A stretch of 64,000 nt of DNA, from positions 4,490,001-4,554,000 of the forward strand of contig CP085710.1 of assembly GCA_023823795.1 (NCBI GenBank). The letters are read 5' to 3'. A model generated the notes under the pieces. It was not told the origin of the DNA and ran no database searches. It worked only from the letters and a program-made list of their open reading frames with translations. This stretch comes from Bacillus sp. F19 (GTDB lineage Bacteria > Bacillota > Bacilli > Bacillales > Bacillaceae). The position numbers and the translations under genes are program-made. Below are positions 25,168-52,564 of this stretch, in pieces (position 1 is the stretch's first letter; every line of letters begins with the position of its first letter).

Positions 25168-25248
25168 TTAAAATTTTTCTGGATTTACTAACGCATAAAG
25201 CAAATAAAGAGTAATCGCGGCAATGCCGCCAAGCAAGACGATCATCAT
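25168..25248 (-). CDS. kdpF: KdpF, small stabilising subunit
   Basis: A 26-residue single-helix peptide, MMIVLLGGIAAITLYLLYAL followed by VNPEKF; the final LYALxxPEKF is the KdpF signature. It is too short for ordinary gene callers. Its ATG overlaps the TGA of the preceding small gene (ATGA), so the two are translationally coupled, and it lies 18 bases before kdpA. Confidence 0.92.
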   Translation of the reverse strand: MMIVLLGGIAAITLYLLYALVNPEKF

Positions 25249-25352
25249 TTTTCTCCCCTGCCTTCTTTCACAATCTCTTCCGACCATTTGACAAGCCCCG
25301 CCATGACTAATGCAAGGGCAGCAAATGTAATTAACATCATGCTGTCTAACAT
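25245..25352 (-). CDS. 35-residue membrane peptide upstream of kdpF
   Basis: Encodes MLDSMMLITFAALALVMAGL followed by VKWSEEIVKEGRGEK: one hydrophobic helix and a charged cytoplasmic tail. An excellent CAGGAGGG ribosome site lies 7 bases before the ATG, and the stop overlaps the kdpF start. It is not KdpF itself, since the PEKF signature is in the next gene. Its placement suggests a further small subunit or regulator of the Kdp complex. No named family recognised. Confidence 0.72.
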   Translation of the reverse strand: MLDSMMLITFAALALVMAGLVKWSEEIVKEGRGEK

Positions 25353-25369
25353 GTCGTTCCCTCCTGTTC

Positions 25370-25753
25370 TTACTGAATCAGAAATTTCACATTATCTTGT
25401 TTCGAATAAAAAACGTGCTTAGCCCCGAGCAGTTCATAAAGCTTTGTCGGGTAATTGGCTTTTTTAGTGATGACTGTAATCGGAACCCTTACACTGGCTT
25501 TGAGAATTTCCATTAACTTACACGTTTCCGCTATTTTGTCTTCCAGCAGAAGCACTCTTGCAATCGGCTCATGTATAAGCAGATACTGAGCATTCTGCCT
25601 TATAAAATAAATTGTTTTGAACCCTCTGCTTTTCAAATGACTCTGCACACTGTAATCTCCTGTTACAAATGCAAGTGATGAGTCCTCCGGGAGAATTTCA
25701 TCCATGCAGCCGAGCCTTGAATAGCTTGGAATGCAAATCAGCATCGTTTCCAT
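25370..25753 (-). CDS. Small RCK_N-like protein at the head of the kdp operon
   Basis: A 127-residue soluble protein. Its second half alternates strands and helices as in the second half of RCK_N/TrkA-N domains: RVLLLEDKI (strand ending in acidic D), helix, PITVITKKANYPTKLYELLGAKHVFYS. That block aligns with the KtrA segment ending in KVLDKIGVNKVIHPE and with the protein at 26055-26447. The N-terminal GxGxxG is lost (ICIPSYSRLG), so nucleotide binding may be changed. There is no RCK_C or membrane part. It lies between a c-di-AMP riboswitch and the small kdp peptides, 17 bases before the latter, so it is co-transcribed with kdp. Regulatory role inferred. Confidence 0.68.
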   Translation of the reverse strand: METMLICIPSYSRLGCMDEILPEDSSLAFVTGDYSVQSHLKSRGFKTIYFIRQNAQYLLIHEPIARVLLLEDKIAETCKLMEILKASVRVPITVITKKANYPTKLYELLGAKHVFYSKQDNVKFLIQ

Positions 25754-25780
25754 GACGTTCCCTGCCTTTACAGATTCAAT

Positions 25781-25816
25781 AAAAAAACCGCGGAAGAGGG
25801 ATCTCTTCCGCGGTTT
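25781..25816 (-). terminator. Attenuator of the kdp c-di-AMP riboswitch
   Basis: On the minus strand AAACCGCGGAAGAG pairs perfectly with CTCTTCCGCGGTTT around a 4-base loop, followed by TTTT. It sits between the riboswitch and the first kdp-operon gene. Confidence 0.92.
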
Positions 25817-25859
25817 CAGGCATCACTAAAGAAGCGTGCCGCACCTGCGTTTTTGATTT

Positions 25860-26000
25860 TCCCTCACTACGCTTTCGGGGTTAGCTGTCGGATTCGGACT
25901 ATGAGAGTAGCCCTACCATTTTTCAATGGACTCACCCCAAGTGATGGTCATCACAAAAGATTGGGTCCCCCGATTTCGTATAGAAATTAAGCGATTAGGT
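25860..26000 (-). ncRNA. c-di-AMP riboswitch directly upstream of the kdp genes
   Basis: Minus-strand blocks: AATCGCTTAATTTC, ATCGGGGGACCCAATC, TTGGGGTGAGTCC, GGTAGGGCTACTCTCATAG, TCCGACAGCTAACCCCG. A very strong terminator follows. I found no promoter between this aptamer and the stop codon of the gene upstream (26055), so it probably works on transcripts coming through that gene. High c-di-AMP should switch the kdp genes off. Confidence 0.92.
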
Positions 26001-26054
26001 TTTTCTTTTTCCTGATTCTCCTTTAGAGAACCACCTCCTTTAATGACAGATTGA

Positions 26055-26447
26055 TTATCTTTCTTTTACGTGTCTAAGCCGTGTGTATATAAAGTCTTCC
26101 GGCTTGCTGACAATGACATATTTTGCACCTGATTTTTTATAGAGGTCATAGTGCCTGCTATCATGGGTCATCACAATGATTCGCATTGTGCCCAATTCAG
26201 AGAAAAATGCAGTTAATTCAAACCCTTCATTGATTGAGTCAGAGATGATATACACAGAGCGGTAATGATGGAACTTCTTTTCCATTTCCAGCAGATTATC
26301 AATGCGAGTGTTGCCATCTTCAGAATTCGTCAGATCATACGAGTACTGATCGTAGGACATGACATCGCATTTTTTATTCTGAAAGGTTACACTCTCAGCA
26401 ACAGAACCGTATAATTCTCCCTTTCCTATGACGAGTGTATGATTCAT
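26055..26447 (-). CDS. Small RCK_N-like protein between two c-di-AMP riboswitches
   Basis: A 130-residue soluble protein. It opens with HTLVIGKGELYGSVAES, a GxGxxxG nucleotide-loop-like strand-turn-helix, and ends with RIIVMTHDSRHYDLYKKSG then AKYVIVSKPEDF, which parallels the RCK_N end of KtrA and of the 127-residue neighbour. No RCK_C, transmembrane or DNA-binding segment is visible. I chose the ATG at 26447 because GGGGGA lies 5 bases upstream; an earlier ATG at 26573 adds an unlikely 42 residues. It has its own riboswitch-controlled leader and probably reads through into the kdp riboswitch. Confidence 0.68.
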   Translation of the reverse strand: MNHTLVIGKGELYGSVAESVTFQNKKCDVMSYDQYSYDLTNSEDGNTRIDNLLEMEKKFHHYRSVYIISDSINEGFELTAFFSELGTMRIIVMTHDSRHYDLYKKSGAKYVIVSKPEDFIYTRLRHVKER

Positions 26448-26573
26448 ATTTTTCCCCCGCATACCATGAATGACGGCGTTTTTACACTCTCCTGCCGTTT
26501 CAGCTTCCCCTGCTGAGCAGCCAAAGAGTAAAAAAAAGAGACCAATGCTTACCCTCTCCCCAAGCAAGTCCAT

Positions 26574-26794
26574 ACCATGTCAAACCACCAGCTATACACT
26601 AAAACAAGCATAAGCTGATTGAAAAATGACAGGATGGATCTTGGAGAAAAAGTACTCATTGGTCTACTTAACGCCCAGCAAGCTATATGCCCTCTTTGCG
26701 TTCCGTCTTCCGTTTTCCTTTTTCATTGAATTGCAATAATAAAAAGACCTTCTACAGTCCCCAGGCCTCTTCCCTGCCGCTTAAAAAAGGGCAG
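26574..26794. other. Leader between attenuator and first RCK_N-like gene
   Basis: About 350 bases separate the attenuator from the chosen start at 26447. On the minus strand a second weak hairpin CTGCC/GGCAG (about 26765-26793) follows the attenuator. I see no convincing gene here and no second promoter. Confidence 0.4.
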
Positions 26795-26826
26795 TAAAAA
26801 AAGACTCCTGAAAATAAGGTGGTCTT
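26795..26826 (-). terminator. Probable attenuator of the distal c-di-AMP riboswitch
   Basis: On the minus strand AAGAC..CCT pairs with AGG.GTCTT around TATTTTC and is followed by TTTTTTT. The stem is imperfect, but the position just after the aptamer fits an expression platform. Confidence 0.6.
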
Positions 26827-26831
26827 ATGAC

Positions 26832-26966
26832 CTCCTTCGCTTTAGCCGACGAAGTTAGCTGACGGGTAGGATGGCGAAAGAGATCTCATCCTTCCTGCAA
26901 ATGCAGGATTAACCCCAAAAAATTGGTTCCTCCGCTCCCGATTCTCGGGACTAGGCCGTTATGCAA
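26832..26966 (-). ncRNA. c-di-AMP riboswitch upstream of the first RCK_N-like gene
   Basis: Minus-strand blocks: ACGGCCTAGTCCCGAGAATC, GGGAGCGGAGGAACCAA, TTGGGGTTAATCC, a GCATTTGC-type hairpin, AGGATGAGATCTC, CATCCTACCCGTCAGCTAAC, TTCGTCGGC. This fits the ydaO class although the closing stem differs from the other copies (GGCCTAG in place of GCTTAAT). Confidence 0.88.
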
Positions 26967-26983
26967 TTCTTGATTACGTGATT

Positions 26984-27012
26984 ATCTTACTCCCGCTTAT
27001 ATTCCGTGTAAA
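26984..27012 (-). promoter_or_regulatory. Promoter of the kdp super-operon
   Basis: TTTACA, 17 bases, TAAGAT on the minus strand, about 20 bases before the distal c-di-AMP aptamer. It closely matches the ktrAB leader promoter. Confidence 0.62.
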
Positions 27013-27238: not shown

Positions 27239-27616
27239 ATGGCTCTGTCGCCAAAGAAAAAATTAGAATCCGATTTAAGTGAGGCCTTTATCAAACTTCA
27301 GAGAGATCTCATTGGACGCGGTCCTCAGGAAACCAGAACGTATATTGTCCATGATATGGTCATAGCACGATTCAAAGGTGTATTAACGGTTGAAGAAAAA
27401 CACCTGGTTGAAAACGAGAATGGCCGGAAGCTTGTTAAACAAATGAGACAAGTACTGCGTGAAATGTACAGTAAAAAATTCGAAGAAATTGTAGAAAGAT
27501 ATACCGGCTGCAAAGTGCTGTCCAGCCACAGCGACATCAGCACCAAGATGGGTGAACGGATAGAAGTATTTGTAGTTGATAAAGATTTGGAACGGTTAAT
27601 CGAAACAAAAGGATAA
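27239..27616 (+). CDS. DUF2294 family protein
   Basis: A 125-residue protein of the DUF2294 (Na-translocating-decarboxylase-like named) family. The hallmark block GRGPQETRTYIVHDMVIARFKGVLTVEE (GRGP and DMVI..RxKGxLTxxE) is plain; helices rich in K and E flank it. It has no signal or membrane segment. GGGGG lies about 9 bases before the ATG, and a sigma-A promoter and a strong terminator frame it as a single-gene unit. Molecular function is not established for the family. Confidence 0.85.
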   Translation: MALSPKKKLESDLSEAFIKLQRDLIGRGPQETRTYIVHDMVIARFKGVLTVEEKHLVENENGRKLVKQMRQVLREMYSKKFEEIVERYTGCKVLSSHSDISTKMGERIEVFVVDKDLERLIETKG

Positions 27617-28055: not shown

Positions 28056-28666
28056 TCCGGGTACCCGATACTGAAAATTGGAGCACTCGATTCAGGCAAA
28101 GCTATTCCAGGTACCCAATACTGAAAATTGGGGCACTCGATTCAGGAAAATCGCTATTCCAAGTACCCAATATTGAAAATTGGAGCACTCGATTCAGGAA
28201 AAACGCTTTTCCAGGTACCCAATACTGAAAATTAGAGCACTCGATTCAGGAAAACCTCTATTCCAGGTACCCAATACTGAAAATTGGGGAAAATCGCTTT
28301 TCCATGTACCCAATACTGAAAATTGGGACACTCCATTCAGGAAAACCTCTATTCCAGGTACCCAATACTGAAAATTGGGGCACTCGATTCAGGAAAATCG
28401 CTATTCCAGGTACCCAATACTGAAAATTGGGACACTCCATTCAGGAAAACCACTATTCCAGGTACCCCAATACTGAAAATTGGAGCACTCGATTCAGGAA
28501 ATACGCTATTCCAGGTACCCAATACTGAAAATTGGGGCACTCGATTCAGGAAAACCACTATTCCAGGTACCCAATACTGAAAATTGGAGCACTCGATTCA
28601 GGAAAAACGCTTTTCCAGGTACCCAAAACTGAAAATTGGGGCACTCGATTCTGGAAAATCGCTTTT
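28056..28666 (+). repeat. 52-bp tandem array 1 (12 units)
   Basis: Twelve copies of a unit of about 52 bases whose core reads GTACCCAATACTGAAAATTGG (one or two bases vary) followed by GGCACTCGATTCAGG and a variable AAAATCGCTATTCCAG. CCCAAT and ATTGGG in the core can pair. One unit near 28285 lacks CACTCGATTCAG. Variants such as TCGCTATT, ACGCTTTT, CCTCTATT and CCACTATT alternate. It is an imperfect minisatellite, not a CRISPR, because there are no unique spacers. Confidence 0.92.
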
Positions 28667-29119
28667 TCGTGCAAGCGGCTTGTTCCCGGCTTTGAGGCCC
28701 CTTGCTATATCGCATGGTCAACCTCTAACCGGTCGACCTTGATCCGCATTCCTGCAAAACGGGGGCCTGCCACACGCATTGAAGTAAGACATCCTGATCC
28801 GAGTGCGAATCCTTACCTTGCATATGCCACAATTGCTGAAGCCGGATTAGCTGGCGTCACGCTGTCTGAATTTCCAAAAGCAGCTGTTCAAGATGATATT
28901 TTCAGTATGTCTGATGCAGAACGCAAATTAATAGGAATAAAAAACCTTCCTGACAACCTGGAGGATGCGTTAGATAAACTTGAACATGGAACACTTGGCA
29001 AAATCATTTTAGGGCCGCATGTTTTTCATCAATTCCTTTTTCACAAGCGGGCTGAATGGCATGAATATCGAAATACAGTACATTTGTGGGAAATAGAAAA
29101 TTACCAGATGAAGTTCTGA
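28667..29119 (+). pseudogene. C-terminal remnant of a glutamine synthetase family gene
   Basis: About 150 codons starting right at the end of the array encode CKRLVPGFEAPCYIAWSTSN, RSTLIRIPAKRG, TRIEVRHPDPSANPYLAYAT and a C-terminal helix region ending IENYQMKF. KRLVPGxEAP, NRS..IRIP and DPSANPYLA are conserved blocks of type-I glutamine synthetase (GlnA) and gamma-glutamyl-polyamine synthetase-like relatives of about 440 residues. The first two thirds, including the ATP and metal sites near the N-terminus, are gone. An open frame runs from the array into it, but its first part is repeat sequence. Confidence 0.88.
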
Positions 29120-52380: not shown

Positions 52381-52415
52381 CGTTAAAACCAACTAAACCA
52401 ATAAGAATTAAATAA

Positions 52416-52519
52416 ATTATCAAGAGTGAACGAGAGATCTGGCTCCGCGACTTCACAGCAACCACCGGCAAACGGAAAGGTGCTCCCACCAGCAAAGCTG
52501 CTGTGCTTTGGTTGATAGA
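52416..52519 (+). ncRNA. SAM-I-type riboswitch upstream of a carboxylesterase
   Basis: P1 stem TATCAA (52418-52423) with TTGATA (52512-52517). Inside: AGAGTGAACGAGAGATCTGG, a GTGAA/TTCAC P2 stem around the K-turn-like segment, CACAGCAACC, then AAGGTGCTCCCACCAGCA as in S-box P3/P4. The order and key blocks (CTGG, GCAACC, GGTGCT..CCAGCA) match SAM-I, with a more divergent P2 than the met copies. A strong terminator follows. Confidence 0.75.
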
Positions 52520-52520
52520 G

Positions 52521-52564
52521 AAAAACCCTCTCTTTATAGCCAATGAAAGAGAGGGTTTTTCTTT
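52521..52564 (+). terminator. Attenuator of the carboxylesterase riboswitch
   Basis: AACCCTCTCTTT pairs with AAAGAGAGGGTT around ATAGCCAATG, followed by TTTCTTTT; 30 bases before the gene. Confidence 0.9.

Follow-up and report, generated by a model that had tools for sequence, protein, structure and literature searches.

Three predicted attenuators ahead of the kdp operon of Bacillus sp. F19, the middle one an apparently undescribed structured RNA

Regulation of K+ uptake by cyclic di-AMP (c-di-AMP) plays a central part in Gram-positive bacteria. The kdp leader tested to date was interpreted as one lone c-di-AMP switch. In Bacillus thuringiensis BMB171, this switch terminates transcription at high c-di-AMP, with termination going from 27% to 63% in vitro (PMC6488665). 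Its aptamer spans +28 to +171, the terminator extends to +227, and kdpF lies at +370 (PMC6488665); with these dimensions, as given in the accessible part of that report, there is no room for the additional RNA described below and no gene before kdpF. A survey of tandem arrangements counted 77 doublets of c-di-AMP riboswitches and excluded cases with an intervening open reading frame (ORF) or a gap of more than 300 nucleotides, so that a gene standing between two switches was left out by definition; the accessible part of its text mentions doublets only (PMC9481103).

Here, we analysed a stretch of 64,000 nucleotides of Bacillus sp. F19 (contig CP085710.1, C1:4490001-4554000 in our numbering, of a 5.59-Mb genome; hereafter the window), in which a kdp operon on the minus strand is preceded by two c-di-AMP riboswitches with a small gene (gene 1) between them. 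An initial annotation had recognised this series, a finding that appears right but understated: judged from the sequence, the transcript would meet three attenuators, and the middle one, which we call R2, is probably a widespread structured RNA that has apparently not been described.

R2, the predicted middle attenuator

R2 (26760-26526) sits between attenuator 1 and gene 1, has its own terminator, and had been overlooked in the initial annotation, according to which gene 1 needs to pass one gate only and kdp two. Both c-di-AMP gates do stand before kdp, but the R2 attenuator adds a third, and gene 1 lies behind the R2 terminator as well as behind terminator 1. Gene 1 is consequently predicted to be behind two attenuators and kdp behind three. 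In the order of transcription, the leader and its genes comprise:

27012-26984 (-): promoter TTTACA-17-TAAGAT ahead of aptamer 1, read from the sequence and also present in genomes G049, G047, and G051
26967-26829 (-): aptamer 1, c-di-AMP subtype with junction CC-TA-CCCG and pseudoknot CTCTTTCGC:GCGAAGGAG (RF00379, 85.3 bits, E 1.9e-18; alignment A6 of 10 genomes; motif count)
26837-26816 (-): candidate antiterminator 1, AAGGaGGTC-ATAA-GACCaCCTT (-8.7 kcal/mol; conserved in A6)
26826-26796 (-): terminator 1, AAGACcaCCT/AGGaGTCTT plus T run (conserved in A6)
26760-26526 (-): R2, structured RNA without an Rfam match (R2 covariance model, 231.4 bits; covariation in 43 copies)
26749-26661 (-): candidate antiterminator 2, GGTCTtTTTA (26749-26740) with TAAGtAGACC (26670-26661) (pairing in alignment A10)
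R2 helix H1 (-): GTCTTTT (26748-26742) with GGAAGAC (26711-26705) (R2 model)
26702-26670 (-): R2 helix H2 (R2 model)
R2 helix H3, terminator 2 (-): 26665-26643 with 26561-26539, then T8 (-60.5 kcal/mol in the window)
26447-26055 (-): gene 1, 130 amino acids, weakly TrkA_N-like (open frame)
26003-25856 (-): aptamer 2, canonical c-di-AMP aptamer (RF00379, 104.7 bits, E 7.5e-24)
25815-25781 (-): terminator 3, the gate of aptamer 2 (13-pair stem, -23.2 kcal/mol)
25753-25370 (-): gene 2, 127 amino acids (open frame)

The covariance model of R2 was built from 11 leaders, that of the window among them (alignment A7), and gives one match in the window, in addition to the complementary strand of R2's own hairpin and one chance-level match. 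Among 43 copies, whose alignment was fitted to the model and therefore favours the structure somewhat, 93.8% of the cells are paired and both sides have changed in 21 of 41 pairs, compared with a shuffled mean of 9.3. None of 500 shuffles reaches the observed covariation on any of five measures, and when the alignment was slid by one to three columns, never more than 49.6% of the cells were paired. At the three innermost positions of H3, pairing is lacking in 12, 26, and 23 of 42 rows, and R2 also contains conserved unpaired stretches. Across the four genomes with gene 1, the 5' part of R2 is 84-94% identical, compared with 70-92% for gene 1 as a whole and 48-87% for its third codon positions; the R2 loop varies freely (42-95%). 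The helix of candidate antiterminator 2 excludes H1 and H3 and pairs in 366 of 381 cells of A10, mostly with invariant bases. By pairing, R2 may thus adopt two exclusive states, one of which would be a terminator.

When compared with the 4227 models of Rfam 15, R2 gave nothing at the gathering threshold; MIR1023, its sole match at E values up to 1, was rejected as chance (19.1 bits, with 90 required). A leader peptide was rejected as well: frames with a start codon occur in 31, 25, and 15 of 42 copies, depending on the frame, none is common to them, and the 20-codon frame in the window's R2 is disrupted in relatives by changes in loop length. No description of R2 was recognised among the top matches listed in open-licence literature.

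With the model, R2 is detected in 15 of the 81 family genomes, in 39 of 397 from the order, in 25 of 250 from the class (19 of the 25 outside the order), and in 4 of 269 from the phylum (two outside the class, one of which is weak); these samples overlap and include the genomes used for building the model. The 67 copies considered further are those that were fetched, the searches having found more. Opposite-strand echoes of the hairpins are excluded, and so is L166:6955-7178 (+), a full-length but weak copy (32.7 bits) preceded by an MpsC gene and followed by a remote MpsC-like frame and a gene 2 homologue. Fifty copies precede kdp (L138 being counted from kdpB and kdpC pieces alone), nine precede ktr, and four precede a permease that we take to be KimA-like; the remaining four precede a gene 2 homologue (two), a gene 1 homologue (one), and an aspartokinase-type operon (one). 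The permease (608 amino acids, AA_permease_2 family, four loci of one genus) is 81% identical to a permease in the window's own genome, the one that follows the fourth c-di-AMP aptamer there (L003). R2 therefore appears to be a structured cis-regulatory RNA with compensatory changes that recurs before genes of one physiology.

Two loci show further combinations. L078:1605-4668 holds an aptamer-R2 leader before small ligase-like and aspartokinase-type proteins; further on, R2 recurs ahead of a gene 1 homologue. On one strand of L145:2181-5147, a c-di-AMP aptamer, an MpsC gene, a subtype aptamer, R2, and the KimA-like permease gene follow each other.

The MpsC family as a candidate partner of R2

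Divergent from the leader lies a gene (27239-27616 (+)) whose product belongs to the MpsC family (PF10057, former DUF2294; Pfam E 5e-38), and close members of this family co-occur with R2. Within the bacterial family, the 15 genomes with R2 and the 15 with a close MpsC copy (E below 1e-50) are the same set, and none of the other 66 has one (best 6e-20). Outside it, a close MpsC is present in 53 of 53 R2 genomes (E at most 3.4e-41). Eleven comparison genomes, which have kdp-type or c-di-AMP loci without R2, yielded no MpsC better than 2e-20. Altogether, a close MpsC (E below 1e-40) was found in 68 of 68 R2 genomes and in 0 of 74 others tested; three of the 11 comparison genomes fall among the 66, for which the absence of R2 is genome-wide, and for the other eight it refers to the fetched locus. 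Fisher tests of the co-occurrence were run but not used because related genomes are not independent. MpsC is found about 5-8 kb from R2, not adjacent to it, in G530, G564, G574, G594, and G674; in family f80 (L161, L162, L167), the MpsC match starts 18-33 nucleotides after R2 on the same strand.

These observations lead us to an explanation that we regard as somewhat probable as a whole, in which a transcript from one promoter would traverse three transcriptional attenuators and R2 would be read by, or together with, MpsC. At gate 1, GCGAAGGAG doubles as the 5' strand of antiterminator 1, which excludes terminator 1, so that platform 1 reads as an OFF switch: the ligand would hold GCGAAGGAG, otherwise the antiterminator strand, and terminator 1 would form at high c-di-AMP. 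This sense agrees with the tested B. thuringiensis kdp switch. Gate 2 would be R2, a separate bistable RNA, with a state A in which H1 and H3 form and H3 terminates and a state B in which GGUCUuUUUA pairs with UAAGuAGACC, breaking both H1 and H3. We infer the direction of this switch and, as its likeliest input, the MpsC-family protein that co-occurs with R2, acting by itself or jointly with a small ligand or the K+ state. Gene 1 would follow gates 1 and 2, and gene 2 and kdp would come after gate 3, in which a canonical c-di-AMP aptamer is combined with a very strong terminator. Full opening of kdp would then need low c-di-AMP as well as the R2 condition, gene 1 would be free of gate 3, and a steeper kdp response from the stacked gates is plausible.

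Several points weigh against this explanation. The stem of terminator 1 is weak by itself (-4.3 kcal/mol), and as antiterminator 2 is mostly invariant, little covariation evidence comes from it. R2 almost always follows a c-di-AMP aptamer and might thus be a mere extended expression platform; among the copies without an aptamer, L078:3993 and L136:5292 show visible degeneration, and the scores of L170:4033, L161:4825, and L025:4609 reach only 74.8, 44.2, and 40.8 bits. Kinship and the usual adjacency of R2 and MpsC inflate the counts, which makes the co-occurrence a strong lead and not proof. We know of no RNA binding in the MpsC family, and a PDB sequence search gave MpsC no solved relative. 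In open-licence literature, no link of MpsC to K+ leaders was recognised among the top matches listed, DUF2294 brought up unrelated matter only, and 'MpsC' had other meanings throughout among the best 20 matches listed. Work on the Staphylococcus Mps operon reportedly deals with bicarbonate uptake.

Less likely, in our view, but deserving attention is that R2 is an orphan riboswitch for a small molecule or ion (e.g., the K+ or osmotic state) and MpsC a fellow member of its regulon. A leader RNA that is conserved and structured, has a terminator of its own and conserved unpaired stretches, and stands ahead of K+ uptake genes would suit such a role; MpsC itself stands behind c-di-AMP aptamers in seven fetched loci of genus g28 of family f23 (L127-L130, L132-L134), as fits a regulon member, and the Na+-I/c-di-AMP leader in the accessible text of PMC9481103 offers a precedent for two inputs. 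However, every R2 genome tested has a close MpsC, even where it lies several kb away, and one would expect a plain member of the regulon to be missing, or to be present by itself, in more cases.

The reading of R2 by MpsC would have wider consequences, which we put forward tentatively and with less confidence than the explanation of the locus itself. The protein and the RNA would constitute a new regulatory pair through which, across Bacilli, K+ uptake under c-di-AMP control would receive a second input, the kdp, ktr, and KimA-like leaders would be two-input gates, and the window's genus would have a three-deep stack in which small regulator-like genes are released at intermediate steps. A widespread second RNA gate that is always accompanied by one uncharacterised family in the tested genomes invites a test of the role of MpsC-like proteins and of other inputs into K+ uptake. 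By placing a gene between gates, one transcript could give different proteins at different signal levels.

Aptamers, promoters, and genes of the series

The two aptamers in series, with a gene between them and ahead of kdp, were borne out by the covariance search, both scoring above the Rfam gathering threshold of RF00379 (38 bits). The genome has four matches of this class, three of them in the window; the third (11251-11107) precedes a Trk/Ktr-type pair (NCBIfam: TrkA-type below and TrkH family above the cut-off). Each aptamer has, by sequence, an expression platform of its own (26826-26796 and 25815-25781), and both annotated attenuators, a stem at 26826-26801 with its T run and a very strong hairpin after aptamer 2, were found in place. 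A pseudoknot between an ACTC-type loop and the 3' tail defines the fold of c-di-AMP aptamers. In aptamer 1, the distal pseudoknot is read from the sequence at 26882-26874 with 26840-26832, and in aptamer 2, CTCTCAT is read as pairing with GTGAGGG (25910-25901 and 25867-25860). The pseudoknot strand GTGAGGGA (25867-25860) is able to pair with TCCCTC of terminator 3, and the alternative fold of this region, when forced, reaches -29.8 compared with -39.1 kcal/mol.

Aptamer 1 departs from the consensus at conserved positions (junction CC-GAA-CCCG to CC-TA-CCCG, AAU to AGU), in a form that is shared by ten aligned leaders of several families and has a near-invariant 3' half (A6). By its sequence, it is a diverged c-di-AMP aptamer subtype, and equal c-di-AMP affinity of the two aptamers can thus not be assumed. 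Contact residues from the accessible part of PMC7288161, placed on aptamer 1 through a crystal sequence, presumably are mostly kept, which is a lead only and not a test.

The subtype and R2 travel together. A pattern search gave 132 distinct aptamer cores among the loci in hand, and TCC-T(A/G)-C before CCG.CAGCTAAC is found in 34 of the 34 cores that have a downstream R2 H3 motif. Among the 98 cores without this motif, the subtype form or a variant differing by one letter was found in 11, of which 10 carry R2 by the covariance model; the sole exception, L158:9880-9738, has downstream of it what by eye is an incomplete R2-like stretch, succeeded by an ABC transporter operon, presumably of the glycine-betaine type. 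After this operon (L158:9880-9400 (-)) come a gene 1 homologue and a kdp leader. Seen from R2, an aptamer core lies at most 260 nucleotides upstream of 61 of the 67 copies, with the strict subtype motif in 59, and is lacking in six. The distance from CAGCTAAC to the start of R2 (59 measured) is 74-95 nucleotides in 56 copies and 34-35 nucleotides in three f80 copies. The aptamer-free copies precede gene 1 (L078), gene 2 (L025, L170), and ktr (L136) or are located between MpsC and kdpA (L161, L162).

Such constancy of subtype, motif, and spacing would be explained if R2 were the distal part of one long c-di-AMP platform, its second terminator backing up terminator 1, and AAGACC of terminator 1 could, by eye, pair with GGTCTT of R2. 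We nonetheless judge this unlikely: two genomes have an aptamer-free second R2 between MpsC and kdpA, one of which (L162:4944-4787) keeps its helices almost fully paired, so that R2 is separable, though rarely, and it is not obvious what the conserved H2 hairpin would do in such a platform.

That the three gates act on one transcript depends on the promoters. The leader promoter was located where the initial annotation had placed a single one, and TTTACA with a -10-like box stands at the equivalent spot in all six leaders read from other families. In agreement with the same annotation, no promoter-like site was found on this strand between gene 1 and aptamer 2 (26055-26003), and since a good promoter is absent there, transcription probably reads through from gene 1 into aptamer 2. 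A plain promoter scan of the window was powerless (11 found compared with 8.3 expected, standard deviation 2.9); because the promoter and terminator scans match shuffled sequence, their output was left out of the evidence. Gene 1 itself contains a weak promoter-like pair, TTGTCA(26113)-18-TATACA(26084), which is kept in G049 (alignment A1). If it drove aptamer 2, gene 2, and kdp, gates 1 and 2 would act on gene 1 only; we consider this improbable, as the pair is lost in G047 and G051 despite the same gene order and its -10 box is poor. The scheme with two c-di-AMP gates only and an ordinary untranslated stretch ahead of gene 1 accommodates two real aptamers and a very strong terminator 3, but is contradicted by the conservation, covariation, and terminator 2 of R2 and is highly improbable.

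Just ahead of aptamer 2 (26041-26014 (-)), a ribosome-binding-like AAAGGAGG is followed by a hairpin (nine pairs in the window); the core of this element is kept in four of four genomes, and no start codon was seen by eye.

The two small genes had been annotated as RCK_N-like. For gene 1, the assignment holds weakly (TrkA_N 15.3 bits compared with 23.8 at the Pfam cut-off, E 0.026), gene 2 has no Pfam match, and neither gene matches NCBIfam. The gene 2 profile meets KtrA 5but at E 0.47, and profile comparison and PDB sequence searches with gene 1 gave weak RCK-like hints; a relation of both genes to RCK_N domains is suggestive. By profile, they are distant paralogues of each other (hhalign probability 91%, E 9e-7, 61 columns), and their genomic place suggests a link to K+ transport. 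Downstream of gene 2, the operon continues as follows:

25352-25245 (-): small ORF, 35 amino acids, read from the sequence, with kdpF next
about 25248-25168 (-): a frame that we take to be kdpF
25149-20711 (-): kdpA, kdpB, and kdpC, open frames (NCBIfam TIGR00680, TIGR01497, and TIGR00681, above cut-off)
20708-19500 (-): short kdpD with KdpD and Usp domains, kinase domain unmatched (Pfam)
19484-19071 (-): CBS-domain protein (Pfam CBS)

Of the 81 family genomes, 4 have gene 1, always beside gene 2, and 10 have gene 2; a sample of 299 genomes of the order gave 8 with a match to gene 1 and 17 with a match to gene 2. The order aptamer-gene 1-aptamer-gene 2-kdp is found in all four family genomes with gene 1, the window's included (4 of 81). 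In two genomes of the same genus without gene 1 (G050 and G045, the latter with a broken gene 2), three canonical aptamers follow one another directly ahead of gene 2 and kdp, spaced by 30-33 and 80 nucleotides. As the innermost aptamer and terminator are alike in both arrangements, the upstream module has probably been exchanged. A gene between aptamers is also found in other genera, as aptamer-gene 2-aptamer-kdpA (L084), aptamer-MpsC-aptamer-CBS (L092/L133, L128), and aptamer-MpsC-subtype aptamer with R2 (L145). L023:4948-5516 and L028:4796-5370 each show three successive canonical aptamers before kdp, the first two 30-33 nucleotides apart with scant room for a terminator.

Elsewhere in the window, 28532-29119 (+) is a glutamine synthetase remnant, which retains the C-terminal catalytic part only (profile 201-344 of 344) after a repetitive stretch; NTENWG-type repeated peptides occur there in several frames (28180-28600), around the remnant. 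A full-looking synthetase (frames of 451-468 amino acids) stands behind one or two c-di-AMP aptamers in the relatives' loci L021, L022, L024, and L025 and is shortened in L023; in the accessible text of the literature matches listed, a c-di-AMP riboswitch with glutamine synthetase appears as a mere analogy. Two SAM-I riboswitches lie back to back at 50146-49849 (-) (89.8 and 88.1 bits), with a third on the other strand (52414-52521).

Comparison with known systems

In autoregulated protein-responsive attenuators, the gene of the regulator lies beside its RNA target. The f80 loci resemble these systems in that the MpsC gene stands behind R2, and differ from them in that the MpsC family is not, to our knowledge, RNA-binding. 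With the Na+-I/c-di-AMP leader, as the accessible text of PMC9481103 presents it, the locus has in common that a c-di-AMP gate and another RNA gate are arranged in series; unlike Na+-I, R2 has no Rfam family and is placed after, not before, the c-di-AMP aptamer. The c-di-AMP tandems in the same text likewise consist of switches of one class in series, each with a terminator, for which a steeper response was predicted. In contrast to these, the aptamers of the window are 825 nucleotides apart, with R2 and gene 1 between them, and fall outside the tandem definition.

Among tested systems, the B. thuringiensis kdp switch, a single one, comes closest. The window shares with it the aptamer class, the place before kdp, the truncated KdpD downstream, and the terminator-type platform; whereas one aptamer and one terminator are described in the accessible part of that report (PMC6488665), the window would have three gates and a gene between them.

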